From Cytobacillus oceanisediminis 2691 (GTDB lineage Bacteria > Bacillota > Bacilli > Bacillales > Cytobacillaceae), in assembly GCF_000294775.2 (NCBI RefSeq), contig NZ_CP015506.1, forward strand, positions 4,997,501-5,061,500: a stretch of DNA of 64,000 nucleotides. The letters run 5' to 3'. Below the pieces are notes generated by a model, which made no database searches, was not told where the DNA came from, and worked only from the letters and a program-made list of their open reading frames with translations. Below, one piece after another: positions 150-21,407 of the stretch (position 1 is the first letter of the stretch; each line of letters begins with the position of its first letter). The position numbers and the translations under genes were made by a program.

Positions 150-179
150 AAAGCCGTCCGATTGATTGGGTGGCTTTAT
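150..179 (+). terminator. Rho-independent terminator of the partial gene
   Basis: AAAGCC at 150-155 pairs with GGCTTT at 172-177, with inner CC/GG pairs and GU wobbles. The hairpin starts four bases after the stop codon. Confidence 0.6.
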
Positions 180-259
180 TGGCCTATGTATTCCTGACCT
201 GCAGGAAATACCCTTTTTCCATCCGATTATAGACCACGCTATTAACTATTCTTTTATAT

Positions 260-427
260 TTATATTTGGTTGTAATAGATATTAATTTCTTTCAGGTCTC
301 TATGTATCGCTTTTTCACTTACATCGAATAGTTCTGCTGCCTCTTTCTTTTTTATTATTTCCCCTCGATTCAACATCTCAAATAGAGATAAAATCCGAAT
401 CGTTTTCGTTATTGCTTCTTCAATCAC
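260..427 (-). pseudogene. Truncated HTH (WYL/DeoR-type) regulator fragment
   Basis: The 55-residue product contains one winged-helix segment (RILSLFEMLNRGEIIKKKEA, then a typical recognition helix SEKAIHRDLKEI), the pattern of the N-terminus of WYL/DeoR-type regulators, which are usually about 250-320 residues. Here the frame stops directly after the HTH, and further stops follow in the same frame, so the effector domain is missing. GTG at 427 is preferred because AAGGGAG lies 8 bases upstream; an upstream TTG at 448 is the alternative. It is either a remnant or a small DNA-binding protein of its own. No partner gene is next to it. Confidence 0.5.
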
Positions 428-770
428 CTCTTTTACTCCCTTCTCCAAATTGTTTTTAAGGAAAATAATAACATATTTATAGTTATTTTATAATATATTT
501 AACTCTTTTTTTATCTTTTAAACTTTATTTTAATACGAATTTTAAATCAGTTTATGAAACATAATAAATTTTCGAGTGAGTGTACGCCCTAAATTTACTA
601 GTAATCCAAAATATAATTCAAAGATAAATTAAACAGACATCCAATTTAATACCATTTACTTTCACCTAGTAAATCTATTACATTATTATTACAAAATTCT
701 AAATTTTACGTTTGATTTTGCACCGGTTACAGGAATTTAGAACTATTATTTCGCCAAAAAAGGCCCTTTT
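428..770. other. AT-rich intergenic region
   Basis: Very AT-rich sequence between the HTH fragment (minus strand) and the first PlcR-like gene. No credible ORF or RNA was seen. Its right end holds the conserved box at 743-762 described separately. Confidence 0.5.
743..762 (+). promoter_or_regulatory. Conserved box upstream of the first PlcR-like gene
   Basis: CTATTATTTCGCCAAAAAAG lies directly upstream of the -35 element at 771. A close match, CTATTATTCACCAGAAAATG, lies upstream of the second PlcR-like gene at 2463-2482. Two paralogous regulators sharing this box suggests a common operator or auto-/cross-regulation. This is inference from sequence similarity only. Confidence 0.4.
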
Positions 771-798
771 TTGACTCTTTCCGTTAATTATTTATCTT
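771..798 (+). promoter_or_regulatory. Probable sigma-A promoter of the PlcR-like/peptide cassette
   Basis: TTGACT (771-776), a 16-base spacer and TATCTT (793-798). This places a transcript start about 80 bases before the ATG at 889. Confidence 0.5.
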
Positions 799-888
799 CT
801 CTAACAGAACATAAGTCGCAGAGGATTTGAAAAACAGTTGATGAAAGTGGAAATTTTGGCATATTATTATAGGAAAGGAGGGAGAGTT

Positions 889-1776
889 ATGAGCATTGCT
901 GAAATTAGTTTTGGAGAAATACTCCAGGCTCTTCGGGAATACAAAAAGCTGAGCCCTGAGGAGCTGGCTAAGGGAATCTGCACCGTAGAGGACCTTTATT
1001 CATTTGAAAAAGAAAAAAAGTATCCTGCACTCGACCAGCTTTATGAGTTAGCTGAAAAACTGAATGTCGAAGTAAATTACTTTTTTCACTATGCCTCCTC
1101 AAGTACGTTTAATTATGTAACCGCTGTATTTGAACTGATAAAAAAATACAAGCGGGAAAGAAACTACCAGGCTATCTATGACATTATTAAAAGAGAACGG
1201 CAAAATCCCATCTTCAAGCATATTTCCCACAAACAGTTCTTAATGTGGCATGAAGGAATTTGCATCTACTATTTAAGCAAGGATGTCTATAACTCTGTTA
1301 ATACACTTTATACAGCAATCGACTTAACGAACCCTGATCGTACGAATCTTTCAGAACGGGAAATTGAAATCCTGACAAGCATTGCGATTATCAGATTTGA
1401 GGAAGAGGAATTTGCTGTGGCAAATGATATTTTCGAAGAAGCCCTCAAAAACCTCGAATCCTTGCCACATATCCTTGATCCCAAAGCAAAACTAAGGATT
1501 CTCTATGGCCTCTCTCAAACCCTATCAGCCAGAGAACAGTACGAAAGTTCCCTGCAATACAGCAACCAAGGCATCAAGGACTGTATTAACAATGAACTTC
1601 TTTATTTATTTGGGGAATTTTACTATCAGTCTGGGGAAAATTATATAAAGATAGATGATGTGGATAAAGGAATTGAATATATCAATAAGTCTAAAGAAGT
1701 CTTTTTACTCCAAAACAACGAAAGATTCGTAAAATTAGTGGAAGTCGAACTAGAAAAACTACTAGAAAAATGTTAA
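889..1776 (+). CDS. PlcR/NprR-like RRNPP quorum-sensing transcription regulator
   Basis: A 295-residue protein with an N-terminal XRE-type helix-turn-helix (about residues 8-62, ending in the PlcR-like pattern LNVEVNYFF) and a C-terminal all-helical region of TPR-like repeats, the layout and length of PlcR and its relatives. In that family the TPR domain binds a short, re-imported signalling peptide that changes DNA binding. The ATG at 889 is chosen because AAAGGAGGGAGAG lies just before it; an in-frame ATG 17 codons upstream has no such site. The HTH is somewhat degenerate (CTVEDLYSFEKEK where family members have CSQSYISRIEKG-like sequence). A 47-codon pro-peptide gene starts 42 bases downstream on the same strand, almost certainly in the same transcript, which fits the regulator-peptide pairing of this family. 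Confidence 0.85.
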   Translation: MSIAEISFGEILQALREYKKLSPEELAKGICTVEDLYSFEKEKKYPALDQLYELAEKLNVEVNYFFHYASSSTFNYVTAVFELIKKYKRERNYQAIYDIIKRERQNPIFKHISHKQFLMWHEGICIYYLSKDVYNSVNTLYTAIDLTNPDRTNLSEREIEILTSIAIIRFEEEEFAVANDIFEEALKNLESLPHILDPKAKLRILYGLSQTLSAREQYESSLQYSNQGIKDCINNELLYLFGEFYYQSGENYIKIDDVDKGIEYINKSKEVFLLQNNERFVKLVEVELEKLLEKC

Positions 1777-1817
1777 TATTTTCTTGTTGAATATTAAAAA
1801 CTGAAAGGATGGTAGTA

Positions 1818-1961
1818 ATGAAAAAGTTTTTTGCTACTGTAACTTTAGCCCTATCTGTTTTTGCTTTAGGTGCTGTTTTCTCTGGCGGTGCTGCTACTGA
1901 TGGTCTTCCTACACAGCATAGCCCACAATTTTCCACAATGGGGCTGCCTACACAGCACTAA
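1818..1961 (+). CDS. Secreted pro-peptide with two GLPTQH copies (PapR-like signal precursor)
   Basis: A 47-residue ORF with RBS GAAAGGATGG and an ATG at 1818. It has a classic export signal: MKKFF, a hydrophobic core (about residues 5-20), then a small-residue stretch GGAA. The rest is short and polar and carries the hexapeptide GLPTQH twice: once after TD at residues 29-34 and again as the very C-terminus (residues 42-47, preceded by M). PapR, the 48-residue PlcR partner, also has a signal peptide and a C-terminal active peptide (LPFEF); the shared LP and the C-terminal placement support the same role. It follows a PlcR-like gene and precedes a strong terminator. Exact mature peptide and receptor are inference; a small exported peptide of other function is the alternative. 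Confidence 0.8.
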   Translation: MKKFFATVTLALSVFALGAVFSGGAATDGLPTQHSPQFSTMGLPTQH

Positions 1962-1970
1962 TGTTTAGAA

Positions 1971-1999
1971 AAGCACTTTCTTCACGAAAGTGCTTTTTT
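1971..1999 (+). terminator. Terminator of the regulator-peptide cassette
   Basis: AAGCACTTTC (1971-1980) pairs perfectly with GAAAGTGCTT (1986-1995) around a 5-base loop, followed by TTTT. The A-rich left flank means it could also serve the convergent small gene at 2009-2161. Confidence 0.85.
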
Positions 2000-2008
2000 A
2001 TATTATCA

Positions 2009-2161
2009 TCAATCCGCGATAATCTTCCGCAGATCGTCTTCCATGTCCATAAGCAGCTGTTTCACGCTGATTTCCTGTTCTCCAATTCCTTTTTCATAGG
2101 CTTTTGTAATCATGTCCAAGAAAAGATTATGCACGGAATCAGACTCCTCTATTACTTTCAA
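2009..2161 (-). CDS. Small acidic protein, 50 residues, TTG start
   Basis: The minus strand shows TTG at 2161 behind a strong RBS (GGAGGGTAGGGAA) and an open frame of 50 codons ending in TGA at 2009. The product is a charged, probably alpha-helical cytosolic protein (LLMDMEDDLRKIIAD at the C-terminus) with no membrane segment or cysteines. It is convergent with the peptide gene and shares its terminator. No family is recognised; length and helical charge resemble small Bacillus modulators such as Spo0E-like or anti-regulator proteins, but the Spo0E SQELD motif is absent. Confidence 0.55.
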   Translation of the reverse strand: MKVIEESDSVHNLFLDMITKAYEKGIGEQEISVKQLLMDMEDDLRKIIAD

Positions 2162-2534
2162 TTCCCTACCCTCCTATTTACCTAGTATTTCTTAAACATC
2201 ATTTTATTACGTTCATCATCACTTGACAATCTTTTTCCAATTATTTCAAAAAAGGCCACTTCTCTTGGAAGCGGCAAAATGGAGATTTTTAGGATGTTGT
2301 TCCAAAGATAGAAAAACACTCCATGTCCAGGACTTAGAATCGAGACAAGTGTGCTTGTCTTTATAATCCCAAATTAATCCTGTAACATATTAATAGAACC
2401 ATTTAAACATAAAAAATCTTTCTTTGAATTTCCGATTATAAGCCTTTAAATTGTTTTTTGGGCTATTATTCACCAGAAAATGCTTGTTTTCTTAGAAAAT
2501 ATAACTTTAAGAATATTTTAAAGGGTGTGTGGAT
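2162..2534. other. Intergenic region with decayed coding traces and a conserved box
   Basis: On the minus strand, hairpin GCCGCTTC/GAAGTGGC (about 2252-2275) is followed by TTTTTT, and two overlapping stop-free stretches without good starts run through about 2190-2390. A 7-bp inverted repeat (AGACAAG/CTTGTCT, 2343-2360) is also present. It reads like a decayed gene or dispersed repeat. The box at 2463-2482 matches the one at 743-762. Confidence 0.35.
2463..2482 (+). promoter_or_regulatory. Conserved box upstream of the second PlcR-like gene
   Basis: CTATTATTCACCAGAAAATG is the counterpart of the box at 743-762, about 55 bases before the ATG at 2535. Confidence 0.4.
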
Positions 2535-3413
2535 ATGGACTTTTCAGCGATAGGCATGAAGATTAAAGAGTTGAGAAAATCATTGGGATTGTCACAAAAG
2601 GACCTTGCAAAAGATATTTGTACCCAGGCACAAATAAGTAAAATTGAAAATGGCGATGTATTGCCCCTGGCCTCTACTCTATACTTTATATCTCAGCGCC
2701 TCGGAGTCGATATTAATTACTTTTTTGACATTGGCACCACTCCGAGACTGGATTATGTACAGGAAGTCATTAACCAGCTGAAACAGGCCAGAAATAATGT
2801 TAATTATCCACTCATTAAAGAAATTGTCGAAGCAGAAGAAAAGAACCCCCTCTTTGCTGCTAACAAGAAAAATCTGCAGCTGCTTCTCTGGCATAAGGGT
2901 ATTTATCTCTTCCATGTCCATCATGACGCAGAATTGGCTCATTCTTTAATTGATAGGGCTATTGGGCTGACCTTTGATAAGGTATGGACTGAAAGAGAAA
3001 TTGAGATCCTGATGAGCAAGGGGATCTTCTTCTATGAGAATGGGCATTATTATGAGGCAATGGACATTCATCTCTCTGCAAGAGCGCATTTAAACCATAT
3101 CATTTACCTTCAGGATGAAACTATCCGCAGCAGACTGCTATATAATCTGGCAAAAGCTTATACCAAACTCGAAAATTATCAGGAATCGATCCGCTTATGT
3201 GAAGAAGCAATCTCGGTATGCATCGAAAAGGACCTTCTCTTCCTTTTGGGTGAGCTTCACTACCATATTGGATTCAATTATGAGCTTCAAGAGAAGTTCG
3301 TATTGGCGAAGACATATATGTCACGGGCTCTTGAGATTTTTCATCTTCAGAAAAATGACCGATATAACGACTATATCCGGGGAAAAATCCAAAAATTCAA
3401 CAGCAGCAGCTAA
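2535..3413 (+). CDS. Second PlcR/NprR-like RRNPP regulator
   Basis: A 292-residue paralogue of the regulator at 889-1776, with a canonical XRE HTH (about residues 5-60: LRKSLGLSQKDLAKDI, then ISKIENGD) followed by TPR-like helices. The ATG at 2535 is preferred because AAAGGG lies nine bases upstream; the GTG at 2529 would be too close to it. No peptide-precursor ORF was found between its stop and the next gene at 3559, so it is an orphan receptor that could respond to the GLPTQH peptide of the neighbouring cassette or to another signal. It shares an upstream box with the first regulator. Confidence 0.8.
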   Translation: MDFSAIGMKIKELRKSLGLSQKDLAKDICTQAQISKIENGDVLPLASTLYFISQRLGVDINYFFDIGTTPRLDYVQEVINQLKQARNNVNYPLIKEIVEAEEKNPLFAANKKNLQLLLWHKGIYLFHVHHDAELAHSLIDRAIGLTFDKVWTEREIEILMSKGIFFYENGHYYEAMDIHLSARAHLNHIIYLQDETIRSRLLYNLAKAYTKLENYQESIRLCEEAISVCIEKDLLFLLGELHYHIGFNYELQEKFVLAKTYMSRALEIFHLQKNDRYNDYIRGKIQKFNSSS

Positions 3414-3558
3414 AAGTTAGACCGCCGGTCAATTGACATAAATCGACACGAGTATAAAATCCTATATTTTTTGTATAACATTGTAAATATATGATCTTTT
3501 TGGACGATATATGTGGTAGAATTATCTAAAAATGTATATAGGAGAGTGAACCGGAAAA

Positions 3559-4584
3559 GTGAAAAAACAGATGGTCTCCATAGCAGCTGCTGCCATGCTT
3601 TCTTCCGCATTTGCCGCCCAGGCTTCTGCTGATACTCACGTCGTGAAAAAGGGCGATACCCTTTATCAACTTGCAATCAAATACAATACAACGGTTAACG
3701 AGATTAAGAGTCTGAATGGATTACATTCTGATTTCCTTTCTATTAACCAAAAACTTCAAGTTTCCAGCGGGACCAAGCAAACCAGCAAACCAAAACCAGC
3801 TGCTCCTGCTCCTAGTGCCAGTACATATACTGTAAAATCAGGAGACACTCTATCCAAGATTGCTTTACAGCATAATATGAGTTTACAAGATTTAATGAAT
3901 TTGAATAATCTTAGCGGCCACTTAATTTTTCCAGGGCAGTTATTTAAAGTGTCCAAGTCTGCAGGAAGCGCTTCGGAAGAGCAAACATCTGTCTCTGCCC
4001 CCCCTGTTTCTTCTGCACCATCAGGGAATTCGGTATATGTCGTGAAGAGCGGAGACACCCTGAGTGGCATTGCATCCAAACATAAGACAACTGTCAACCA
4101 GTTAAAAGCGCTGAATAACTTAAATTCTGACCTTATTTTAGTTGGACAGAAATTAAAGGTACAAGCTGTTCAGAATTCAAGTGCCAATGATCAGTCAGGC
4201 ACAGGAGTTAAAGAGGAAAATTCCGCTTCATCTTCGGTTCTTGCCGAAGCCCAGAAGCATGTAGGTGTTCCATACCAATGGGGCGGCCAAACTCCTTCAG
4301 GCTTTGACTGCAGCGGTTTCATCTATTATGTCCTAAAGCAAACAGGCTCCAAGATGGGACGGTACTCTTCAGAAGGGTACTACAGCCGCTCTTTTTATGT
4401 GAATACGCCACAGCCTGGCGATTTAGTATTTTTCGAGAATACATATAAGAAAGGCATTTCTCACTTAGGTTTCTATGTAGGAAATAATAAATTTATCCAC
4501 GCTGGCTCATCAGGCGTTGAAGTTTCCAGTCTGGATAATTCGTATTGGAAGAGCCATTTTGATGGATTTAAACGTTTTTACTAG
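3559..4584 (+). CDS. LytE-like LysM-NlpC/P60 cell-wall endopeptidase
   Basis: A 341-residue exported hydrolase: signal peptide (1-24, cleavage after ASA), three LysM domains (about 26-68, 89-131, 159-201) separated by Ser/Pro/Ala linkers, and a C-terminal NlpC/P60 domain (225-341) with catalytic Cys251 (GFDCSGF), His302 (ISHLGFYVG) and His314 (FIHAG). The family cuts the gamma-D-glutamyl-meso-diaminopimelate bond of peptidoglycan. Three LysM plus P60 and this length match B. subtilis LytE (334 aa). The start is GTG at 3559 with GGAGAG upstream. Two TTGTAWA repeats at 3471-3490 recall a WalR site, but the spacing is 10 rather than 11 bases, so that regulation is unproven. Confidence 0.9.
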   Translation: MKKQMVSIAAAAMLSSAFAAQASADTHVVKKGDTLYQLAIKYNTTVNEIKSLNGLHSDFLSINQKLQVSSGTKQTSKPKPAAPAPSASTYTVKSGDTLSKIALQHNMSLQDLMNLNNLSGHLIFPGQLFKVSKSAGSASEEQTSVSAPPVSSAPSGNSVYVVKSGDTLSGIASKHKTTVNQLKALNNLNSDLILVGQKLKVQAVQNSSANDQSGTGVKEENSASSSVLAEAQKHVGVPYQWGGQTPSGFDCSGFIYYVLKQTGSKMGRYSSEGYYSRSFYVNTPQPGDLVFFENTYKKGISHLGFYVGNNKFIHAGSSGVEVSSLDNSYWKSHFDGFKRFY

Positions 4585-4610
4585 GACACCTTTTTACAGG
4601 TGTCTTTTTT
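4585..4610 (+). terminator. Terminator of the LytE-like gene
   Basis: GACACCT pairs with AGGTGTC (4585-4604), followed by TTTTTT, directly after the stop codon. Confidence 0.85.
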
Positions 4611-4681
4611 CATATTTTGGAAGGAGTATACATATATTTTGAAGAATGATATAGATAGCGGGGTCTAAAGGAGGAGATCAG

Positions 4682-4981
4682 ATGAACATCGTAGGTATTA
4701 TTACATTTTTGTCCTTATCTTTATTATTAACGAGTCTTCTTTTAATTTATTCCAAGCTTCAGAATCAGACTCCAGGAAAGCTGGCTGCCATTATTGTTTT
4801 TTTCCTTTTGAATGCAGTACCCCTTGTGTATATCGTCTATACCGAGCAAAGCATGGACTATGCGAGCAACTCTTTTACACTTGGCTCAGCATTTATGATT
4901 GTATGGCTGATTACAGCCGTGATTATGTTTATCGGCATCCTTTTCAGATCCCGATCTGGTAACCAAGATCCTTATTATTAG
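4682..4981 (+). CDS. Small membrane protein, three helices
   Basis: A 99-residue protein with strong RBS (AAAGGAGGAGATC) and three predicted transmembrane segments (about residues 3-24, 34-54, 68-89), ending in a polar tail. No family is recognised. It has its own terminator and is not in an operon with its neighbours. It would sit in the cytoplasmic membrane; function unknown. Confidence 0.7.
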   Translation: MNIVGIITFLSLSLLLTSLLLIYSKLQNQTPGKLAAIIVFFLLNAVPLVYIVYTEQSMDYASNSFTLGSAFMIVWLITAVIMFIGILFRSRSGNQDPYY

Positions 4982-4988
4982 GCATAAA

Positions 4989-5019
4989 AGAACCAGCAGC
5001 ATATATGGCTGCTGGTTCT
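4989..5019. terminator. Bidirectional terminator between convergent genes
   Basis: AGAACCAGCAGC and GCTGCTGGTTCT form a perfect 12-bp stem around ATATATG. It lies between the plus-strand small membrane protein gene and the minus-strand adaptor gene, and can end both. Confidence 0.85.
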
Positions 5020-5021
5020 CT

Positions 5022-6236
5022 CTATCTGGAAAGAAGTCCTCTGGCTGCGTATTTCAGCATGTCTTTCTTTCTTAACTCCTTTAAGTCTTTCTTCTTCAGT
5101 TTTTTCGGTTCCATTGAGGTAATGAAGGGAAATCCTGTTTTTAAAAATGGTGGTCTTTCCAGGAGAATGAATTCTCCATTCTCGACCCCTTCTTTCACTT
5201 CCAGGGTCTGGTTAACCTTGATACCTGTCTCGATTTTTTTTCTTTCCACCCGGCCATTTGTCTGAATCACATATGTATATTTGCCTTTGTTCGCCTTCTT
5301 AACCGCTTCGGCCGGAACAGTCAGGGTATCTATCACTTCATTTGTTACGATTCGAACATCTACATGCTCACCATGGAAGCTTCCAAGCCTGTTTGATTCA
5401 TCTATTGCTATAGAAAATTCATACCGGCTCTCTGCTTCAGCATGTGGTTCTGAAGTAGGGTGGTTTAAAATCTTTTCAATGGTTCCATTAATCTTTTTAT
5501 TGCTGCCTTCCGGTGTGATAAATACCTTCATCCCTTCCGCAGCTTTTTTAATTTCCTGCTCAGAAAAAATCCCGGTGACCTTTTGCTCATTGGATATAAC
5601 AGTTACTACAGGATTAGTGAGGTCATGCTTAATGCTTTTTACTGTCCCGTCAATTTCACTAGCAACTGTAAGATTTAAAAGACTTTCATCTGCAGCCTCG
5701 ATCAGGTCCTCGTACTTTTCAATTTCAGTATCAATTCTGCTGATTTGCAGCTCTTTTTCATAAATATCCCGTTCAATTGTTTGTATCATATATTCATTCG
5801 GATTTGGCTGATCCTCTTCAACGATTGCACTGGAAAGGGTTCTTTGCATTCCTTCCAGATCACTAATATGGCTTTCAAGATTTTCTTGTTCGTTTTCCAG
5901 CGTTTCCTTTTCAATTTGGAATTCTTCTTTTGTGAGTGTAATGTCATCCGGAGAATACTCAAATAACCCTGTACCCTGCTGTACTTCATCACCTTTTTCG
6001 ACGAGAAATCCTTTGAATGTGCCGGTTGAATTTTCATAGTAAAAATGCTGTTCTTCTTTTGGGGCCAATACACCTCTTGCTGGCATGGTCTCAAGAAGAT
6101 CCTGTTTTTTTACAGATGTCCATTCATCAACATGGTAAGTCCTGTTTATTTTATCATTTTTAAGAAATAGCAGGGTGATGTTACAAGCCAAAAAGAGAAC
6201 CACAGCACCTGCTAACAATCTTGCCTTCCAAGTCAT
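5022..6236 (-). CDS. YknX-like membrane-fusion/efflux adaptor
   Basis: A 404-residue protein with an N-terminal membrane anchor (about residues 5-26), a biotinyl-lipoyl-like half (FYYENSTGTFKGFLVEKGDE), a long coiled coil (about 105-190), the second lipoyl half (EIDGTVKSIKHD) and a beta-barrel region. This is the HlyD/RND adaptor fold. The lipoyl segment resembles B. subtilis YknX, which works with YknW and the ABC transporter YknYZ against the SdpC toxin. The gene is 16 bases downstream of a YknW-like gene, supporting the assignment. A Lys-rich C-terminal extension (after about residue 360) is longer than in YknX. No ABC ATPase/permease gene is next to the pair. Confidence 0.75.
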   Translation of the reverse strand: MTWKARLLAGAVVLFLACNITLLFLKNDKINRTYHVDEWTSVKKQDLLETMPARGVLAPKEEQHFYYENSTGTFKGFLVEKGDEVQQGTGLFEYSPDDITLTKEEFQIEKETLENEQENLESHISDLEGMQRTLSSAIVEEDQPNPNEYMIQTIERDIYEKELQISRIDTEIEKYEDLIEAADESLLNLTVASEIDGTVKSIKHDLTNPVVTVISNEQKVTGIFSEQEIKKAAEGMKVFITPEGSNKKINGTIEKILNHPTSEPHAEAESRYEFSIAIDESNRLGSFHGEHVDVRIVTNEVIDTLTVPAEAVKKANKGKYTYVIQTNGRVERKKIETGIKVNQTLEVKEGVENGEFILLERPPFLKTGFPFITSMEPKKLKKKDLKELRKKDMLKYAARGLLSR

Positions 6237-6252
6237 TAAAGAATCCCCTCAC

Positions 6253-6915
6253 TTATATAAGCTTTTCCAGGTGGATGGATGAGAGTAAAGCTGAAACAAT
6301 CACAAAAAACAGATGCGTTCCGAGTAACACCAAAATAAGAAAGCGGGGGCTTCTTTCGGATACGACTTTTAAGTACTTATATTGCAGGACAAGTGTCCAG
6401 ATTTTAAATAATGTTATTGCAGAAAGAGTATAGATTATTAACTCAGGGAAAGCTGAGGCTTGAGCAATAATACCGAATGAGAATATAGAAGAGTTAGTAT
6501 TTAATCCCAAAAACAAAAAGATTGGAATATTGATTATCTTTTCAGTTAATAGAATCAGCAAAACCATTAATTGAATGCTTATCAGTTTTTTGTACTCAAC
6601 CTCGACAAGGGTCCAAAAGAACAGGGAAGGCACAAAAATGACCAAAATGGCATAGACAATCCCCCAAATAACCTGCCCTGCTCCAAAGAAAAGCTTATAC
6701 AGTTCATATTCGCTTCTCGAAAGGTCTAAAAGGCTTCTCGATGCTTGTTCACTTCCAATGCCAAAGAAGGCACTAAACCCAAAAACAAGCGCACTTAAAA
6801 GGATTAATAGCAAAACTTGTTTCCATAAACCAGTCAGACTTTCCTCTTTCCTCAACTGATGCGAAATTGTATATGGCTCCTTCAATCCTCTCAGAAGCGG
6901 TACCCGATAGCCCAT
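6253..6915 (-). CDS. YknW-like (Yip1-type) membrane protein
   Basis: A 220-residue polytopic protein with five to six hydrophobic segments from about residue 33 on and a short polar N-terminus. Size, topology and the adaptor gene downstream match the YknW/YknX pair; B. subtilis YknW is a Yip1-domain protein of similar length that helps assemble the YknXYZ complex. The family call rests mainly on gene order and topology. It is the first gene of a two-gene operon. Confidence 0.6.
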   Translation of the reverse strand: MGYRVPLLRGLKEPYTISHQLRKEESLTGLWKQVLLLILLSALVFGFSAFFGIGSEQASRSLLDLSRSEYELYKLFFGAGQVIWGIVYAILVIFVPSLFFWTLVEVEYKKLISIQLMVLLILLTEKIINIPIFLFLGLNTNSSIFSFGIIAQASAFPELIIYTLSAITLFKIWTLVLQYKYLKVVSERSPRFLILVLLGTHLFFVIVSALLSSIHLEKLI

Positions 6916-7112
6916 AAAGAATCCTCCAACACTGTAATCTACTATTCTTTTATCTTACATCAAAATCAAAATTTTGGGAAATGGGTAGAAATGTGCAGAA
7001 TTGGGGCTAAATCTTCTTAAAGGATTGTCGAAAAGGCGTAGAGATACGTATTTTCTTTATTTTTCTCCTTTTTTCAAAAAAAAGCGTGTCAGAATTTGCA
7101 AAAACTTTTGTT

Positions 7113-7138
7113 GTTTCAAGTTACCAGAAAGGCGGTAT
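7113..7138 (+). promoter_or_regulatory. Possible sigma-B-like promoter
   Basis: GTTTCA, 14 bases, CGGTAT, resembling the sigma-B pattern GTTTAA-N12-14-GGGTAT. It lies about 70 bases before the 34-codon ORF at 7206. Confidence 0.3.
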
Positions 7139-7205
7139 AGATAAGTAAGAATTTTACAACTATGTCCTTGTCACGAGAGAATTAAAAATCGAGGAGGGCT
7201 TACAA

Positions 7206-7310
7206 ATGAAAATAAAAGCTGGAAACTGGAGAATGCTGAGTGAGCAGGAGAAGTTATTTATTTTGGAAGCGGTCAGCTTTTTTCAGTCTAGAACGAAGAA
7301 GCGGCAATAA
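7206..7310 (+). CDS. Small basic protein, 34 residues
   Basis: ATG at 7206 follows a strong RBS (GAGGAGGGC, 6 bases before the start). The product (MKIKAGNWRMLSEQEKLFIL at the N-terminus, RTKKRQ at the end) is amphipathic and basic with no signal peptide. A 7-bp inverted repeat (AGGCACC/GGTGCCT, 7356-7391) follows. It sits alone in an otherwise empty 600-base region. Function unknown; the RBS is the main support. Confidence 0.5.
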   Translation: MKIKAGNWRMLSEQEKLFILEAVSFFQSRTKKRQ

Positions 7311-7490
7311 TGCCAAATGATCTAAATATATTTACATTAATCAGTTCGATATAGAAGGCACCTTGCCAGGTAACATAAGGTGATGGTGCCTAAATAACTC
7401 GTAAGATTGGCTCAGACAAGAAATTTCCACCCTCTCATAATTTAAATGTTAGGGTTTTTGGATAAATTTCATTTTAAAGTTTACTAAAAA

Positions 7491-7519
7491 AGTGCCTGCA
7501 TCATATAGATGCAAACACT
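7491..7519 (-). terminator. Probable terminator of pbpC
   Basis: Imperfect hairpin AGTGCCTGCATC...GATGCAAACACT; on the minus strand it is followed by TTTTTTAG, just after the pbpC stop. Confidence 0.6.
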
Positions 7520-7534
7520 TGATTAGTTCCGGCA

Positions 7535-9541
7535 TTAAAAACGCCCTTTATGCTCCTCAAATACCTTCTTCACCTTTTCCACTACTACTTTCGACCCGCC
7601 GCTCTTTTCAACGCCTTCTATCATCATCGCAATAAGCAGCTTCGGAGACTGGGGATTGTATGCAACAAACAGGCCATTTTCCTGCCCCTTTTCGTTTGCA
7701 CTTTTTTTCAGCTCAGCTGTCCCTGTTTTCCCAGCCAAAGGGTAATCTTTCATATAAGCCGGCCGGCCGGTTCCGCTTGGATTCTGGATGACTTTAGCCA
7801 TTGCGGCTGCCACCGTATTCGCAGTTTCTTCGCTCATCACGCCTTCTTTTAGCACCTGGCTTTTTTCCTCTTCTTCCAGAAGAACAGGTTTGATCATGGA
7901 TCCCTTATTGATGAAAGGTGTGTAAGACGCTGCAAGATGAACAATGCTCATTTCCACCTGGCCCTGGCCGTAGCCCGAATCAGCGAGCAGAATCTCTGTG
8001 TCCAGGCCGCCAATCTTGGATGGTTCAAGCGGGAACGCGTATGGAATTTCCTCTTCAAACGCAAATTTCTTGAGCCCTGCTGAAAACTTTTCTTTTCCCA
8101 GCTCCAGGGCTTGCTGGGCAAAATAGATATTATCCGAATACATCATCGCTTTTTCAAAGTTGACCGGCCCGCCGGGGTCTTTAACACGAGTGACTTTATA
8201 GCCACCCCATGAACTGTCTTTTTGCCATTGAAGGCCCTTAACATTAATCGTTTCATCAAGCGTTAATGTTCCTTCTGTCAGTCCGACTGCGCCTGTCAGC
8301 GGCTTCATCACTGAACCTGGCGCATAGGTTTGCTTAAATCGTGTCAGAAGCGGCATGTCCTTATTGCCTTCAATTGCCTTCCACTCATCAGCTGTAAACC
8401 CGAGTGAAGCCTGGTTCGGATCAAAGCTCGGGCTGCTGACGAGCGCCAGCGTATTTCCGGTAATTGGGTCAATTGCTGCTGCGGTTCCCGGCTTTCCTCC
8501 CAGCTCTGTGTAGAGTGACTTCTGCAGGTTCATGTCGATGGTAAGCTGAATAGTTTCACCGTTCTCTACCGGTTTTTCAGAGAGGACCACTTCAGAGCCG
8601 TCCTTCTTTTGGATGCCGATTTTAATTCCGTTCGAACCCTTCAAACGCTCCTCAAGCACCTGTTCGAGTCCTCTTTTCCCAATTATATCAGTACTTGAAT
8701 AGCCTTCACGCTCTTTCATTTCATCAGCTGTAATCGTTCCAACATATCCGATTAGATGGGCTGCTGATTCCCCCATCGGGTAGACTCTGCCTTTGACATC
8801 CTGTTTCAGGACACCTTTTAGTGCGAACACTTTATCTAATGTTGTCCTATCATCCGGGGAAACCTTCTTAATTGGCACAAAGTAACCTGGCTGCACCCAG
8901 CTGGCATTCAAGCTTTTATTAATCTGCTCTTCTGACATTCCCAGGGCTGCTGACAAACCTTTGACAGTCTGCTCCTTCTGATCACCCATTTGTTCTGGTA
9001 CAACACCAATTTCATATAGGGTGCCGTTTAAAGCAAGCGGGTCACCTGTTCGGTCCACAATATCCCCGCGCTGCGCCGGAACAGTTGAATAGCTGATTTT
9101 ATCCTCTGGCCCCAGCTCCGGGAAAATATAAGTCGTATCCCAGGCAACAAACCAATTGTCTTCCTCTTCCTTTTCCTCCTTCACAAGCTTGGCATCATGG
9201 GTAAATTCAATCTTGCCGGCTGCACTGTCCATGCTTGCTGAAAAAGGAAAACTTGCATTTTCTTCTTTTTTGTATTCCTTTTCCATATCCGGCTTGTATG
9301 TTACCTTCAGATTATCTATCTCTAAATCCTTATAAATCTTTTCATAACGGGCTGCAAAGTCCTCTTTGCTGATTGACTGCTTCGCACCCTTTGACAGGTA
9401 TTCGTACATCTTCTCAAACTCTTGCTTATTCCAATGCTCCACATACTGCTTAAAGCGATCCTGCGGCTTAATTTCCTTATTGCACCCGCTCAACGCGGCC
9501 AAAACCAGGACAGCAAAAACAAAAAACAATACCTTTCTCAT
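7535..9541 (-). CDS. pbpC: Penicillin-binding protein 3 (MecA-type class B transpeptidase)
   Basis: A 668-residue lipoprotein, exactly the length of B. subtilis PbpC. The signal peptide ends in lipobox LSGC (Cys20). Next come an NTF2-like MecA N-terminal domain (about 24-140), the PBP dimerisation domain (about 155-320) and the transpeptidase domain (about 350-665) with active-site motifs S410-V-M-K, S469-D-N and K605-T-G. It cross-links septal or lateral peptidoglycan outside the membrane. Related PBP3/PBP2a enzymes have low beta-lactam affinity; whether that holds here cannot be read from sequence alone. It is a single-gene unit. Confidence 0.93.
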   Translation of the reverse strand: MRKVLFFVFAVLVLAALSGCNKEIKPQDRFKQYVEHWNKQEFEKMYEYLSKGAKQSISKEDFAARYEKIYKDLEIDNLKVTYKPDMEKEYKKEENASFPFSASMDSAAGKIEFTHDAKLVKEEKEEEDNWFVAWDTTYIFPELGPEDKISYSTVPAQRGDIVDRTGDPLALNGTLYEIGVVPEQMGDQKEQTVKGLSAALGMSEEQINKSLNASWVQPGYFVPIKKVSPDDRTTLDKVFALKGVLKQDVKGRVYPMGESAAHLIGYVGTITADEMKEREGYSSTDIIGKRGLEQVLEERLKGSNGIKIGIQKKDGSEVVLSEKPVENGETIQLTIDMNLQKSLYTELGGKPGTAAAIDPITGNTLALVSSPSFDPNQASLGFTADEWKAIEGNKDMPLLTRFKQTYAPGSVMKPLTGAVGLTEGTLTLDETINVKGLQWQKDSSWGGYKVTRVKDPGGPVNFEKAMMYSDNIYFAQQALELGKEKFSAGLKKFAFEEEIPYAFPLEPSKIGGLDTEILLADSGYGQGQVEMSIVHLAASYTPFINKGSMIKPVLLEEEEKSQVLKEGVMSEETANTVAAAMAKVIQNPSGTGRPAYMKDYPLAGKTGTAELKKSANEKGQENGLFVAYNPQSPKLLIAMMIEGVEKSGGSKVVVEKVKKVFEEHKGRF

Positions 9542-9612
9542 AACTCACCCTCCCTATTACTATATTATCATTTAATTGGAGAAATTTCCTAGCGGCAGTT
9601 ACCACCTAAATT

Positions 9613-9636
9613 TTGCCGAATGTGAACTTTGCAAAT
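9613..9636 (+). repeat. Solo copy of the phased-array leader
   Basis: The 24 bases starting TTGCCGAATGTGAAC match the start of the TGCAAATA array at 53501-53524 with one mismatch. Only one TGCAAAT unit follows here. As in the full arrays, it lies between the 5' end of one minus-strand gene and the terminator of the next. Confidence 0.6.
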
Positions 9637-9681
9637 TTAGATTGTCACTTGAGAGTTATACATCGTCTATCAAATAAAAAT

Positions 9682-9709
9682 GGATGCAAACGATATAGGT
9701 TCGCATCCT
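9682..9709 (-). terminator. Terminator of the long sigma-54 operon
   Basis: GGATGCAAAC pairs with GTTCGCATCC with one mismatch around a 7-base loop; on the minus strand it is followed by ATTTTTATTTG. It lies just past the permease stop codon. Confidence 0.8.
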
Positions 9710-9732
9710 TCTATTAATTTAACCAAATTTTT

Positions 9733-11079
9733 TCAAAACCAATTCAGTATATAAACATACAAAAAGGCCATCCCTGTAACAGAGATAAAGTATACACCAT
9801 TCCATCTGAATGCAACGGTCAGCCCGTTTTTTTGAACACATTGGCTGATGATGATATTCAGGGCGTTAAGTGGTGAAATGGAAGAAGAAAGCATCCAGGT
9901 GAAAATGCACATAAATGCCACACTGACTACCGTAATACCAGGCATTTCGGCAAAGTTCAGCGAGGTTAGGATCAGCGGAATGACGATAATTTGATGGACT
10001 CCAAGAAAGGCCATTAACGTAACAAACAGGATGATGAACGAGAACAAAGTTCCGATAGACTGCTGTGCTGACCATTGCATGGACTTCTCCAGCAGCTGTT
10101 TTACAGGTGTGTGTGAAACAGCGTTGCCAAAAAGACCCGCGCTTAGAAAAAGGCAAATTTCCATCCTCTGTGCCAGTATCTTGCTCTTATAGAGGGAAAC
10201 TTCTTCCTTTACGGCCTTTTTTTGCTTCCGCAGGACCATCCAGCCTGCCGGCACAATGAAACAGACCATGCTTACCAGCAATAGCATTGATTTGTGGGAA
10301 ACCTGCTCCATGACAATCAAGAGGAGCACCAGGCCAAGTACAAAGCCGGCCAGCGTGTACAAATCCTTTTTTCTGCCTTTATCAGCTGCCGCGTCTCCAG
10401 TTTCCTCCTCAAGTGCAGCTGCCGTCTCCACAGCTCCAGCCGGTCGGAACAGAATCATTCCTGCTGCCATCTGCAATATGGCAAAAACCACACCAAACGC
10501 TACATAAGAAAGATACGTGATCTCTAAATAAAACAAAACAATTCCTACTGAAGCAAAGAATGGCGACCAAATAACAGCCGGTGTAAATCCTACATAGTAC
10601 GACCTTGATAATAACTTGGATGGAATTTTGATGTTTTCCACAAAGCCGTGTACAATCCTTAAGGCCCCCATGTTCAATATAGGAGCCAGAGTCAGCATAA
10701 ATGAGCTTATGCCATAAAAAGTATGGGCAGGGCTGTTTTTCAGTTCATTTAAATAAGTTATAACTGTATCAATAATTCCTTCCCTTCTTAAGGGAATGGA
10801 CAGAAGCGGAGCCAGAATGAGAATGGCCAACAGGGCCATATTCTGAGTGATGCCCTCGATCAGCAGCAGGCCCCTATCCCCGACTGCATAATGAATGAAA
10901 ATCCCCGCAGAGAATAGGCCCAGTGTAAATATCCTGCCCTTCCTATCCAATAACGGCACCATGGTGAAAAAGACCGCTGCAGCCGCCATATTAAAAATAA
11001 AGCTAATGTACATATTCGGCACAAATGCCTCAAGAATATAAAGAAAACACATGCTTAATACGAGAGAAAACCGTATCAT
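9733..11079 (-). CDS. Putative organic-anion permease, about 12 helices
   Basis: A 448-residue integral membrane protein with evenly spaced hydrophobic segments, a central polar loop (about residues 218-240) and a re-entrant-like segment (SSSISPLNALNII), features of the ion-transporter superfamily (DASS/CitM-like). It is the last gene of the 15-gene operon that begins with the sigma-54 activator, starting 17 bases after the dehydrogenase gene upstream. A second transporter besides the TRAP system suggests import of a related acid or export of a product. The exact family and substrate are not resolved. Confidence 0.55.
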   Translation of the reverse strand: MIRFSLVLSMCFLYILEAFVPNMYISFIFNMAAAAVFFTMVPLLDRKGRIFTLGLFSAGIFIHYAVGDRGLLLIEGITQNMALLAILILAPLLSIPLRREGIIDTVITYLNELKNSPAHTFYGISSFMLTLAPILNMGALRIVHGFVENIKIPSKLLSRSYYVGFTPAVIWSPFFASVGIVLFYLEITYLSYVAFGVVFAILQMAAGMILFRPAGAVETAAALEEETGDAAADKGRKKDLYTLAGFVLGLVLLLIVMEQVSHKSMLLLVSMVCFIVPAGWMVLRKQKKAVKEEVSLYKSKILAQRMEICLFLSAGLFGNAVSHTPVKQLLEKSMQWSAQQSIGTLFSFIILFVTLMAFLGVHQIIVIPLILTSLNFAEMPGITVVSVAFMCIFTWMLSSSISPLNALNIIISQCVQKNGLTVAFRWNGVYFISVTGMAFLYVYILNWF

Positions 11080-11096
11080 AGGAACCCTTCTCTCTA

Positions 11097-12203
11097 TTAT
11101 TTAACTCCACTGGAAGGACTTTTAACCTTAGCCGGAGCATAACTGCTTAAAAGCTCCATAAACTCATTGCCAAGCTGATCCGTTGAAGCTTTTCCGCCCA
11201 GATCCGGAGTTAGTGAACTCTTATGCTGAAGCAGGTCTTTCATCGTTTTCAGGATGGCGCTTCCCCAGGCCGGTTCTCCAAAATGATCCATCATCTGGCT
11301 GACGGACCAGATGGCAGCCAGCGGGTTGGCAAGACCTTTCCCGGCAATGTCCGGTGCGGATCCGTGAATAGGCTCGAACATGGATGGAAACTCCCTTTCA
11401 GGATTGATATTCGCTCCCGCAGCCAGCCCGAGTCCCCCTGTAATCGCAGCCCCCAGATCGGTTAGAATGTCCCCGAATAAATTGGAGGTAACGACAATCT
11501 CAAATCTTTCCGGCTGCAGAACAAAGTAGAGGCTTGCAGCATCCACCAAATAGGAGTAAGTTTTGACATCCGGATATTCTTTCCCCACTTCATCAAATAC
11601 CTCATCCCAGAACACCATGGAGTAATTCAGTGCATTTGCTTTACTGATGCTTGTTAATGTCTTTTTCTGTTTGCGGGCTTCTTCATATGCATAGCGAATA
11701 ATGCGTTCTGTTCCTTTCCTTGAAAACACACCGGTCTGCAGGACTACCTCCTCAGGCTTTCCTTTGAAGAGCCAATCCCCTGCTCCAGCATACTCACCTT
11801 CACTATTCTCCCTGATAACCAAAAAGTCGATCTCTTTTTCCCCTTTGTTTTTTAGCGGTGTCAGCTCCGGATGCAGAAGTTTAATTGGGCGAATGTTTAC
11901 ATACTGATCAAATTCCTTCCGGATCTTCAGGAGCAGGTCCCACAGTGAAATATGGTCAGGCACACCAGGATAGCCTACTGCCCCCAAATAGATGGCATCG
12001 AATCCCTTTAATTGTTCGATTCCATCATCAGCCATCATCTTTCCTTTATCCAAATAATATTGGCAGCCCCATGGGAACTCTGTAAAAGAAAAGGATAAAC
12101 CGAGATCAAGTTCCTCTATTTTTTTTAATACTTTTACTCCTTCTGCCACCACCTCCGGGCCTATTCCATCTCCAGGGATCAGTGCAATATTCCAATGCTT
12201 CAT
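11097..12203 (-). CDS. Tartrate/D-malate-type NAD-dependent oxidative decarboxylase
   Basis: A 368-residue member of the isopropylmalate/isocitrate/tartrate dehydrogenase family. It begins ALIPGDGIGPEV, carries the substrate/metal-binding segment TSNLFGDILTDLGAAITGG and the NAD-binding segment PIHGSAPDIAGKG. The sequence resembles the TtuC/DmlA/YcsA group (tartrate or D-malate dehydrogenase) more than LeuB, because no leu genes are near. Likely reaction: oxidation and decarboxylation of a 2-hydroxy dicarboxylate. Its place in a catabolic operon suggests it handles a (methyl)malate-type intermediate; that is inference. Confidence 0.8.
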   Translation of the reverse strand: MKHWNIALIPGDGIGPEVVAEGVKVLKKIEELDLGLSFSFTEFPWGCQYYLDKGKMMADDGIEQLKGFDAIYLGAVGYPGVPDHISLWDLLLKIRKEFDQYVNIRPIKLLHPELTPLKNKGEKEIDFLVIRENSEGEYAGAGDWLFKGKPEEVVLQTGVFSRKGTERIIRYAYEEARKQKKTLTSISKANALNYSMVFWDEVFDEVGKEYPDVKTYSYLVDAASLYFVLQPERFEIVVTSNLFGDILTDLGAAITGGLGLAAGANINPEREFPSMFEPIHGSAPDIAGKGLANPLAAIWSVSQMMDHFGEPAWGSAILKTMKDLLQHKSSLTPDLGGKASTDQLGNEFMELLSSYAPAKVKSPSSGVK

Positions 12204-12214
12204 ATCATAACCTC

Positions 12215-12976
12215 CTATGCTTTTGGGCCTCCGGCAACATATAAGACCTGACCGCTAATAAATGAGGATGCGGGACTGGCAAAAAAGCTTGCCGCCTGTG
12301 CGATATCCTCTGGAGATCCTGCTCTATTTACCGGAATTTGCTTTACTTTGGATTCAATTAATTCCTGAAAGGAAATGCCAAGCTGTTCTGCGACTGCTTT
12401 TGTCATTTCTGTCTTAATAAACCCAGGTGCAATGGCATTAACGGTAATATTGTATTTTCCCAGTTCAATAGCCAGTGTTTTCGTAAATCCCTGGATCCCT
12501 GCTTTTGCCGCTGCGTAATTGGCCTGCCCCCTGCTTCCCAGAGCTGATACGGAAGATAGATTGATGATTCTTCCATATTTGTTCTGAACCATTAATTTCT
12601 GGGCATATTTACTGCAGAGGAAAGTTCCCTTCAAGTGAACATTCATGACACTGTCCCAATCATCGGCATTCATCTTAAATAACAGGTTATCCCGGATGAT
12701 CCCGGCATTATTGACTAAAATGTCCGCCCTTCCATGCCTTTCCTCTATATAGGAAAAAAGCCTTTCCACTTCCTGTTCATTGGTGATATCAGCCTTGAGC
12801 ATTTCTGCATCAAAGCCTTTTTCCAGCAGTTCATGTCGGGTATCAGCTAAGGCTTCTTCATTAATGTCGACTAAATAGACATATGCACCTTCCGAGGCCA
12901 GTCTTCTGGATATTTCCTTTCCTATCCCCCTGCTTGCGCCAGTAACAACAGCCACCTGGTTTTCTTGATTAAACAA
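12215..12976 (-). CDS. FabG-like short-chain dehydrogenase
   Basis: A 253-residue SDR with cofactor motif TGASRGIG, NNAG, catalytic Ser (SSVSALG) and YxxxK (YAAAK). The C-terminus (SGQVLYVAGGPKA) is typical of acetoacetyl-CoA/3-oxoacyl reductases. Start TTG at 12976 follows TAGGAGCG. In this operon it probably interconverts a 3-hydroxyacyl and 3-oxoacyl intermediate rather than serving fatty-acid synthesis. Confidence 0.8.
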   Translation of the reverse strand: MFNQENQVAVVTGASRGIGKEISRRLASEGAYVYLVDINEEALADTRHELLEKGFDAEMLKADITNEQEVERLFSYIEERHGRADILVNNAGIIRDNLLFKMNADDWDSVMNVHLKGTFLCSKYAQKLMVQNKYGRIINLSSVSALGSRGQANYAAAKAGIQGFTKTLAIELGKYNITVNAIAPGFIKTEMTKAVAEQLGISFQELIESKVKQIPVNRAGSPEDIAQAASFFASPASSFISGQVLYVAGGPKA

Positions 12977-12987
12977 TGACTTCGCTC

Positions 12988-13950
12988 CTATCTATTCAAA
13001 TTCCTGTACAAACATTCAAGCTGCTGTTCGTATTCCTGCACAATATCCTTGATAATCTCTTCTGTCTTTTTTATTTCATCTATTAATCCGATGGTCTGCC
13101 CTAATGAGATGACACCGGAATGTTCATTGCCATTTTTAATTAATTCCATATAGGCTTCTCCGCTTATATATGGAAAGATCTCCTCTAAAACTGCTCCGTC
13201 TTCTTCCTTTTTCAGCAGCTCCAGCGCACGGTCTGTTTTCATCACTCTCATGGCTTTCCCGATTGATTTTTTCACAAGCACGGTATCTGTTTCCTGAAGC
13301 TTTATCAATTTGTCTTTGATCGACTCATGGAGTGCTGTTTCCCTGGAAGCCAAAAACCTTGTTCCCATCTGCACACCTTGTGCCCCTAAAGCAAAAGCAG
13401 CAAGAGCAGATTTTCCTGTTGAAAACCCTCCTGCTGCAATGACAGGTATCGAAAGCTCCTTTACAGCCTTTTGAATCAAGGTAAGGCTGGTTACATCCTC
13501 TTTGCCCGGATGGCCCCCGCACTCATATCCAACCACGACCACTGCGTCGCAGCCAATCGATTCTGCTTTTTTGGCAAATCTTACTGAAGGCACGACATGA
13601 ACGACTTTTATTCCGTTTGCTTTAAGGCTCTCCATATACTTCTCGGGGTTATTTCCTGAGGTGAAAACAACGGGAACACGGGCTTCGATTGCCCCTTCCA
13701 CATATTCATCCATTGGCTTGCGGATTCCAAGAGCGATATTTACACCAAATGGTTTGGAGGTGAGCTTTCTTGCCGACTCAATATCCTCCAGCATTTCTTC
13801 CTTGGACGAAAAGCTTCCAGCTGTTATCAGGCCGAGTCCGCCTGCATTCGATACGGCGGACACAAGCGGGGATGTTCCAAGTCCTTGAAGCCCCCCCTGG
13901 ATAATGGGATAGCGGATGTTAAACATCTCTGTAATAGCTGTGTGCATCAT
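12988..13950 (-). CDS. Nitronate monooxygenase/FabK-like FMN enzyme
   Basis: A 320-residue TIM-barrel flavoprotein of the NMO/FabK group: N-terminal RYPIIQGGLQGLGT, FMN-binding segments PVIAAGGFSTG and GAQGVQMGTRF. It could oxidise nitronates or act as an enoyl-thioester reductase; the family cannot be split reliably from sequence alone. It starts with an ATGA overlap with the thioesterase gene, so it is translationally coupled in the acid-catabolic operon. Confidence 0.75.
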   Translation of the reverse strand: MMHTAITEMFNIRYPIIQGGLQGLGTSPLVSAVSNAGGLGLITAGSFSSKEEMLEDIESARKLTSKPFGVNIALGIRKPMDEYVEGAIEARVPVVFTSGNNPEKYMESLKANGIKVVHVVPSVRFAKKAESIGCDAVVVVGYECGGHPGKEDVTSLTLIQKAVKELSIPVIAAGGFSTGKSALAAFALGAQGVQMGTRFLASRETALHESIKDKLIKLQETDTVLVKKSIGKAMRVMKTDRALELLKKEEDGAVLEEIFPYISGEAYMELIKNGNEHSGVISLGQTIGLIDEIKKTEEIIKDIVQEYEQQLECLYRNLNR

Positions 13951-14360
13951 CCCTTTTCACCTTTTGATAGCTTAAAGGTTCCGGTGCAATGTCCAATCAG
14001 TTCACCGTCTTCATTCTTTAGCCTGCCTTCAATCAATACCGTGCTGCGATTTTGATGAACAATCTCTGCCTCGGAGTAAACCGTACCGTCCATCACAGAC
14101 TTAAGATATTGAATGTTTAGATGGAGTGTCGCAACCTCATCATATCCCAGAGACCTGCCTGCCATGCCCATTGCTGTATCCAGTATGGATGCATAGATGC
14201 CGCCGTGGACAGAATTTCTTACATTTATGAACTCCTTCTGGAGGGGAAGGGCTAATAGAACATGCCCTTCTCTTAATTCCCTTAATTCCAATCCGATAAA
14301 GTTCCAGAATGGGCTGCTTTCAAAATCTGTTATGACTTTCTTCAAATGTTCTGGTGTCAT
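13947..14360 (-). CDS. PaaI-type hotdog thioesterase
   Basis: A 137-residue hotdog-fold protein with the family pattern HGGIYASILDTAMG (HGG and Asp at the expected place). PaaI-like enzymes hydrolyse acyl-CoA thioesters and rescue stalled CoA intermediates. ATGA overlaps at both ends couple it to the hydroxyacid dehydrogenase upstream and the FMN enzyme downstream. Confidence 0.85.
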   Translation of the reverse strand: MTPEHLKKVITDFESSPFWNFIGLELRELREGHVLLALPLQKEFINVRNSVHGGIYASILDTAMGMAGRSLGYDEVATLHLNIQYLKSVMDGTVYSEAEIVHQNRSTVLIEGRLKNEDGELIGHCTGTFKLSKGEKG

Positions 14361-15367: not shown

Positions 15368-15392
15368 CACAACACTTCCTTCATGAATATTA

Positions 15393-16583: not shown

Positions 16584-16586
16584 GCC

Positions 16587-17747: not shown

Positions 17748-17760
17748 TTCTGTCTCTCCC

Positions 17761-18540
17761 TTATTGGTTAGTAAATGCTGCCGTTCTTTTTTCTAGGAAT
17801 GCTAATGTACCTTCTCTTTTATCCTCTGTTCCAAAGGCTACAGCCTGTGAAAGCTTCTCAATCAGCATGGCTGTCTCCAGATCAATATCAAAGCCTTTAT
17901 GTACGGCAAGCTTTGCCAGCTTGATAGCAACCGGGCCTTTTTTAAGAATCTGAGAGGCAACCTCCTCTGCTTTCCTTTCCAGTTCATCATCTGCTGTAAG
18001 GTAAGTTGCAAGCCCGATTCTTTCGGCTTCTTCTCCATCAACGATTTTGCCGGTTAGGATCATATCAAGTGCCCTTCCCTTGCCAACCACCCTGGACAGG
18101 CGCTGTGTCCCGCCTGCACCAGGAATGATGCCCAGGTTAAGCTCTGGCAAGCCGAATTTTGCTTTTTTCGCTGCGATTCGAATATCGCAGGCAAGGGCCA
18201 GCTCGCAACCTCCACCCAGTGCATACCCCTTTACCGCCGCAATCGTTACTTTGCTGGACTGTTCAATTTTCTTGTAGAGCCCCTGCATGCCCGGAATCAA
18301 TGCCTCAAGCATTTTTCTTTCATGAAGCTGCTTTATGTCCGCTCCCGCTGCAAAGGACTTTTCCCCTGCTCCCTGGATGATGATGCATCTCACCTCATCA
18401 TTTGCTTCTGCCCAGCTAAAGGCATCTCCGAGCTCCTGGAGCGTCTCCTGATTTAATGCATTACGCTGTTCAGGACGGTTAATGGTCAGCCACATAACCC
18501 CCTGTTCGATTTGAACAAGCAGATTTTCGTATTGATGCAC
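17761..18540 (-). CDS. Enoyl-CoA hydratase
   Basis: A 259-residue crotonase-family protein with both catalytic glutamates in place: [11 protein letters not shown] and [15 protein letters not shown], plus the oxyanion-hole segment AAGADI. It hydrates trans-2-enoyl-CoA to 3-hydroxyacyl-CoA. GTG at 18540 is chosen since AAGGGGTGAG lies just upstream and length then matches the family; a longer frame reaching 18630 would overlap the preceding gene by 79 bases. Confidence 0.9.
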
Positions 18541-18551
18541 GTTCTCACCCC

Positions 18552-19397: not shown

Positions 19398-19408
19398 TCT
19401 GTTCCCCC

Positions 19409-21376: not shown

Positions 21377-21407
21377 TTCACCTTCTTTTTAAAAGGATTA
21401 TTTAGGT

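Follow-up and report, generated by a model that had tools for sequence, protein, structure and literature searches.

A PlcR-type receptor and an adjoining multi-copy pheromone precursor in Cytobacillus oceanisediminis 2691: a putative quorum-sensing pair and its relatives

In Cytobacillus oceanisediminis 2691, the gene for a PlcR-type receptor (R1) is directly followed by a small gene whose product carries two copies of the hexapeptide GLPTQH. Judged by sequence, the two very probably constitute a quorum-sensing pair of the PlcR/PapR type (RRNPP) with a multi-copy signal precursor. The stretch of DNA analysed, a window of 64,000 nucleotides, lies on the larger contig of the 5.85-Mb genome. Within the genus, every R1-type receptor found is accompanied by such a precursor, with 2–16 copies of the signal.

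Receptor, precursor and surroundings

The preliminary description of this DNA had reported a regulator gene and then a 47-codon gene with a ribosome-binding site, a predicted signal peptide and two GLPTQH hexapeptides, and all of these are present (Table 1). It had also placed a strong terminator after the precursor gene; the hairpin found there was equalled in score by 0 of 200 shuffles, and was absent from the output of a simple terminator scan. In translation the precursor begins MKKFFATVTLALSVFALGAVF and ends ...DGLPTQHSPQFSTMGLPTQH, and its first residues, MKK followed by a run that a simple hydrophobicity score marks as hydrophobic, are those of a predicted Sec-exported propeptide as expected for RRNPP(A) systems. 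The gene starts 41 nt downstream of R1, and because of this short gap and the hairpin behind the precursor, R1 and the precursor probably share one transcript. A degenerate DNA pattern for G-L-P-T-Q-H (GGNYTNCCNACNCARCAY) matched only the two copies in the whole genome (reversed control, 0), and these differ from each other at three synonymous and zero amino-acid positions.

Table 1. Features of the R1 locus, in window coordinates
Feature	Position	Strand	Description	Basis
Promoter-like site of R1, putative function	838..867	+	TTGATG, 18 nt, TATTAT	Consensus scan
R1, PlcR-type receptor/regulator	889..1776	+	295 aa; N-terminal HTH and TPR-like C-terminal domain	
Ribosome-binding site of precursor	1804..1809	+	AAAGGA	Sequence reading
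Pheromone precursor	1818..1961	+	47 aa; MKK, hydrophobic stretch, two GLPTQH copies	
Internal signal copy	1902..1919	+	GLPTQH; differs from second copy synonymously only	DNA pattern match
C-terminal signal copy	1941..1958	+	GLPTQH	DNA pattern match
Terminator-like hairpin	1959..2006	+	T-run on 3' side	-18.4 kcal/mol, z -7.75
R2, second RNPP-type receptor	2535..3413	+	31% identical to R1	Pfam RNPP_C 28.7 bits, cut-off 26.5
LysM-NlpC/P60 cell-wall hydrolase gene	3559..4584	+		Pfam

The promoter-like site of R1 was one of 19 such sites that the consensus scan gave in positions 400–3600, against 12.3 expected by chance; in an alignment with four relatives its TTGAT and TATTAT were invariant and the spacing was 17–18 nt. 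Upstream of R1, within a variable stretch, positions 260–448 of the minus strand encode a short DeoR-type HTH protein of 62 aa. Between the precursor and R2 lies a small minus-strand ORF (2009–2161) with no Pfam match, and the region around it (2004–2298) keeps about 70% DNA identity in three other loci (L044, L048 and L051). Farther away, the window contains tandem 20–42-nt repeats with CTATTTGCAG units (43940–44150), with similar DNA in the R2 loci L062 and L064, and a stretch (55060–55175) without an Rfam match that recurs at 90–96% identity in two loci of other genomes, L063 and L064.

R1 and R2 are the only RNPP_C matches in the whole genome at E 0.001, R1 scoring 76 bits against the cut-off of 26.5. 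The best full-length match of R1 in the PDB is PlcR (phmmer, E 4e-14). A profile search gave PlcR 85 bits, the next matches spanning just the HTH or the TPR part, and Foldseek with the R1 model returned PlcR at ranks 1–5, with a loose whole-chain superposition (query TM 0.61–0.64, rmsd 10.5–11.9). The model is all-helical (pLDDT 90.9), and the 295-aa length falls within the 250–500 aa of RRNPP(A) TPR receptors. PlcR is thus the closest characterised receptor by phmmer, profile and predicted fold, in agreement with the PlcR-PapR-like identity first proposed.

Signal copies and the spread of the multi-copy precursor

R1-type receptors (at least 46% identical, or R1 itself) were present in 25 of 36 Cytobacillus genomes, at 29 loci including the window; genus matches of at most 37% identity, retrieved in part, were treated as R2-type receptors or as other paralogues. 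At all 29 loci a multi-copy precursor lies 22–59 nt downstream of the receptor. The arrangement is not a matter of chance, since it recurs with each of the 28 further R1-type receptors in the genus; the preliminary description had let its proposal depend on the small ORF being conserved beside homologous regulators, and so it is. GLPTQH is repeated 16 times in C. purgationiresistens and six times in C. horneckiae, PLPTQH eight times in C. stercorigallinarum and six times in C. kochii, GIPSEH three to four times in the C. firmus/C. oceanisediminis group, WYPSQH ten times in C. depressus and DYPVQH 11 times in Bacillus sp. FJAT-29937.

Contigs were searched with an alignment query, which found relatives where the single R1 sequence gave none. 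A family-wide profile search gave matches in 99 of 193 genomes, precursors being inspected for a minority of the matches outside the genus, and no R1 relatives were found in phage records at E 1e-8. Among the 58 named loci from the family profile, 31 have a multi-copy precursor, 14 a single-copy precursor and 13 no recognisable precursor. A receptor tree of 55 rows was built with 46 of these loci, 12 loci without a recognisable precursor being omitted and L132 being included though it has none; the tree was rooted at its midpoint and carries a long-branch warning, L113, L106, L120 and L132 being among the rows concerned. All 40 multi-copy rows fall into a single clade (support 100/98), outside which stand 14 single-copy rows (Priestia, Metabacillus, Thermoactinomyces-like genera and others) and the one precursor-less row, so that a single change from the single- to the multi-copy state suffices. 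Signals of the single-copy relatives include LPNQH, LPDQH and LPFQH, the distant TLPFQH being close to the PapR signals LPFEF and LPFEH. The gap between receptor and precursor is 98–303 nt in single-copy and 22–63 nt in multi-copy loci, suggesting that linkage to the receptor transcript tightened. Across the tree, the signal type follows the receptor clade.

Copies were chosen by the motif.[LIYVM]P..H, which requires Pro3 and His6, so that decayed copies are invisible to the counts; two possible ones can be seen, AIPASK in L112 and DIPSLY in L108. All 197 copies have Leu, Ile or Tyr at position 2, and position 5 is Gln in 132 (the window included) and Glu in 50. Compared with the C-terminal x-P-x-E-(F/Y/H) core of the PlcR subfamily, 168 of the 197 copies are internal and Gln is the commonest residue at position 5. 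Between copies of the same precursor, the proportion of synonymous differences (pS) averaged 0.638 and that of non-synonymous differences (pN) 0.008, as counted in the 29 precursors of the genus and not in the full 40 multi-copy precursors of the tree.

These counts bear on the alternative that only the C-terminal copy is the signal and the internal copies are by-products of repeat slippage. A C-terminal copy is indeed present in 29 of the 40 multi-copy precursors (window included) and in all 14 single-copy relatives, and some arrays look recently expanded, such as that of L045 with ten copies in three DNA versions. However, slippage alone would not give many synonymous and almost no amino-acid differences between copies, two-copy Phr precursors are reported to yield more than one mature pheromone (PMC11343458), and the remaining 11 of the 40 precursors have no C-terminal copy at all, the array ending in a spacer or tail. 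We therefore regard this alternative as very unlikely; internal copies are probably used and, provided that the system works, must serve as the signal in those 11 precursors.

The residue before a copy is Ala in 124 of 197 cases, and an internal copy is followed by Ser or Gly in 151 of 168. It had been suggested that the precursor yields two related ligands, for example DGLPTQH and MGLPTQH with different activities, and the residue before the hexapeptide does differ between the internal copy and the last one (in the window, D and M). This seems highly improbable to us, because the hexapeptide is kept while the flanks vary, 38 of the 40 precursors show no amino-acid difference among their motif copies, and in C. 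horneckiae and C. purgationiresistens GLPTQH abuts GLPTQH with no spacer. A single ligand is what the copies resemble, and the abutting copies in two species fix the repeated unit at six residues.

For the quorum-sensing pair that we prefer, we infer export, cleavage sites, re-import, binding, direction of regulation and targets along the following lines. The precursor would be exported through Sec, and extracellular proteases would excise every copy, as GLPTQH or as the pentapeptide LPTQH. The latter is a possible final form, since aminopeptidases as a rule halt ahead of an X-Pro bond. An oligopeptide permease would bring the peptide back into the cell, where it would dock in R1's TPR groove; its His carboxylate would lie close to R203 and its Gln close to R91 and E243, and docking would change the DNA binding of R1. 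Several identical copies would provide more signal molecules per transcript.

Fit of receptor and signal, and the second receptor

When PlcR residues were mapped onto R1 through the phmmer alignment, K87, K89, N201 and Q237 corresponded to R89, R91, G207 and E243 of the window receptor, so that basic character is retained at two contact sites and the two others are changed. K197 corresponds to R203 by the same offset of the ungapped stretch, and R203 is nearly invariant. N201 of PlcR, a peptide-contact residue, is replaced by Gly in 27 of 29 R1 rows, and Asn stands at the 207 position in the three TLPFQH relatives. The PlcRa counterpart of N201, N205, is reported to bind the main chain of the peptide in a docking model (PMC3519770). 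PlcR Lys89 and Gln237 are reported to contact the Glu of PapR (PMC6568020), and Lys197 is reported to hold the PapR C-terminus (PMC5007282).

The structure-based alignment consisted of 37 rows, with L108, L113 and other loci omitted. Considering the 54 receptors with a precursor, all 34 whose signal has Gln at position 5 carry R91 and E243, all 14 whose signal has Glu carry W91 and N or S243, and the remaining six keep R91 with E or D243. Only six of the 295 columns separate the Gln from the Glu receptors with no overlap, and two of these are the contact sites 91 and 243. R89, at the position of PlcR K87 (reported near the PapR Glu), is unchanged between the two sets, and PlcR Y275 lies beyond the alignment. 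All 14 Glu rows belong to one clade, and the co-change therefore counts as one event; it supports the binding register proposed above and is not statistical evidence.

The lack of PlcR Asn201 in R1 could be taken to favour the view that the small ORF encodes a secreted peptide unrelated to R1 (bacteriocin-like, for example) and merely adjoining it. We consider this extremely unlikely, given that the two genes are adjacent at 29 of 29 loci, that signal type tracks receptor clade, that receptor positions follow signal position 5, and that receptor and precursor differ together between two genomes of one species (see below).

The PlcR box TATGNAN4TNCATA was not found at the locus, and the 64 kb contain one match with one mismatch (9331) against 2.4 expected by chance; nor has this palindrome been found for PlcRa (PMC3519770). 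No shared operator emerged among the palindromes in the receptor–precursor gaps of the 14 single-copy relatives. The LysM-NlpC/P60 gene, present with a conserved upstream region in 16 of 41 locus stretches searched (window included), is a candidate target of the system. The stretch upstream of it (window 3430–3558), conserved across the 16 loci, is a possible regulatory site; as an operator it was assignable to neither R1 nor R2.

No signal precursor other than that of R1 turned up within 1.5 kb of R2, nor any beside R2 in the 14 loci that have both R1 and R2; both results come from a small-ORF scan covering ORFs of 22–90 aa that have a ribosome-site-like motif, to which long arrays are invisible. 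Of 12 R2-type loci with no adjoining R1, 11 have a divergent single-copy precursor ending LELPSMH, LELPSVH, ELPTIF or similar, and two of the 12 belong to genomes with R1 elsewhere (G006 and G027). At the R2 position equivalent to E243, eight of 11 GIPSEH loci have His and the other R2 rows Glu or Asp (one gap), the His rows forming one clade. R2 may have been left without a signal of its own and may respond to that of R1. The divergent precursors (L061–L071) lie antisense, about 170–200 nt upstream of the R2-type genes, L068 reading KDFPDQH, and they appear to be a further PlcR-like signal family. In C. horneckiae, the reading frame of R2 (L034) is broken by stops, beside an R1 with six GLPTQH copies.

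Exchange of the locus and relation to known systems

Comparison with another genome, labelled as the same species (G020), revealed 98.6% identity to the window over 9735–27430 and 98.3% over 27496–55890, whereas from about 175 to 9735 only pieces of 70–77% identical DNA align, partly rearranged. The R1 of G020 is 49% identical to that of the window, its precursor carries four GIPSEH, and neither genome shows a second R1. Because the flank is about 98% identical yet receptor and signal differ, the locus has been exchanged within the species: on the sequence comparison, it is replaced between the two genomes. To the left of the exchanged segment the match is weaker (about 89–94%, in short pieces), and farther upstream there is mostly no match, indicating that the locus sits in a variable region.

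The window R1 takes its place beside the receptors of C. horneckiae and C. purgationiresistens, and its grouping with receptors of its own species group was rejected (p 4.7e-9). The window R2, by contrast, groups with receptors of its own species group (support 99/96), the AU test not rejecting its placement with the C. horneckiae type (p 0.23). R1 and R2 thus appear to have different histories, with this R2 alternative left standing. In C. oceanisediminis YPW-V2 an R1 relative with two copies of GYPTQH lies on a plasmid, the annotation giving a regulator and a hypothetical protein, and such cassettes can therefore travel. Further R1 relatives are plasmid-borne (the L158/L159 pair): one in Priestia megaterium, followed by a single-copy ORF ending DLPYQH, and one in Bacillus arachidis, near transposase genes and with no precursor seen.

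The nearest known system is PlcR-PapR of the Bacillus cereus group, which likewise combines an HTH and TPR receptor with an adjoining small secreted precursor and the core L-P-x-E-(F/H), and which has four pherotypes, PapR IV being LPFEH (PMC5007282). R1 is 21–24% identical to PlcR in fold alignments, most receptors of its type have Gly in place of N201, and no PlcR box was found at the R1 locus; the signals end in His, preceded in most by Gln or Glu, and come in 2–16 copies per precursor. PlcRa-PapRa of B. cereus, whose receptor is a PlcR paralogue, provides a precedent for a signal inside the precursor (CSIPYEY; PMC3519770), but there papRa precedes the receptor gene, its product has a single copy and the core is different.

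Repeated signals, held to be unusual for the family in the preliminary description, are not so in the wider family and are already known in RRNPP precursors (PMC5199041, PMC9765709, PMC11343458). Felipe-Ruiz et al. (2022, PMC9765709) describe identical pheromone copies in one propeptide for the AimR, NprR, Rap and PlcR types, and among atypically large PlcR propeptides the same survey gives repeats in three of 15; these three may belong to the R1-type family. The Bacillus phage precursor Phr105 has two identical copies (Felipe-Ruiz et al. 2024, PMC11343458), and the Phr105/Phr3T study reports that extracellular proteases mature multiple pheromones (PMC11343458). Those are two-copy systems with phage Rap-type receptors, whereas the R1 family has an HTH receptor and is chromosomal, once plasmid-borne. 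RRNPPA propeptides are reported with up to six (PMC9765709) or eight copies (PMC11343458), against up to 16 in the R1 family; relative to the 2022 survey, the family is multi-copy in all 40 clade rows, with 11 lacking a C-terminal copy. Propeptides above 100 (default) or 120 residues fell outside the limits of two surveys; nine of our 40 multi-copy precursors exceed 100 residues, and eight exceed 120, the limit in PMC9765709. We found no reports on R1-family signal sequences in the open-licence literature, nor any on Cytobacillus quorum-sensing propeptides, looser matches concerning other systems or taxonomy. From these comparisons, what we judge to be new is the form that this known arrangement takes here: a clade of PlcR type whose members, as far as seen, are all multi-copy, with up to 16 copies and with arrays that lack a terminal copy.

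A bolder reading, possible but on the whole doubtful to us, is that one Bacillaceae clade has an obligate polyprotein-like array from which two-sided cuts release all copies, with copy number (2–16) setting the signal gain, receptor and precursor passing from strain to strain as one pherotype cassette and the neighbouring orphan R2 listening to that signal too. The processing of multi-signal precursors has been called a mystery (PMC9765709), and arrays with no C-terminal copy at all isolate internal processing. With one copy in Priestia and Metabacillus rows and 2–16 in Cytobacillus and its kin, the family offers a natural dose series for one receptor type. The change of the signal from Gln to Glu, together with that of the receptor from R91/E243 to W91/N243, is a candidate specificity switch, and at this locus one pherotype has replaced another within a species.
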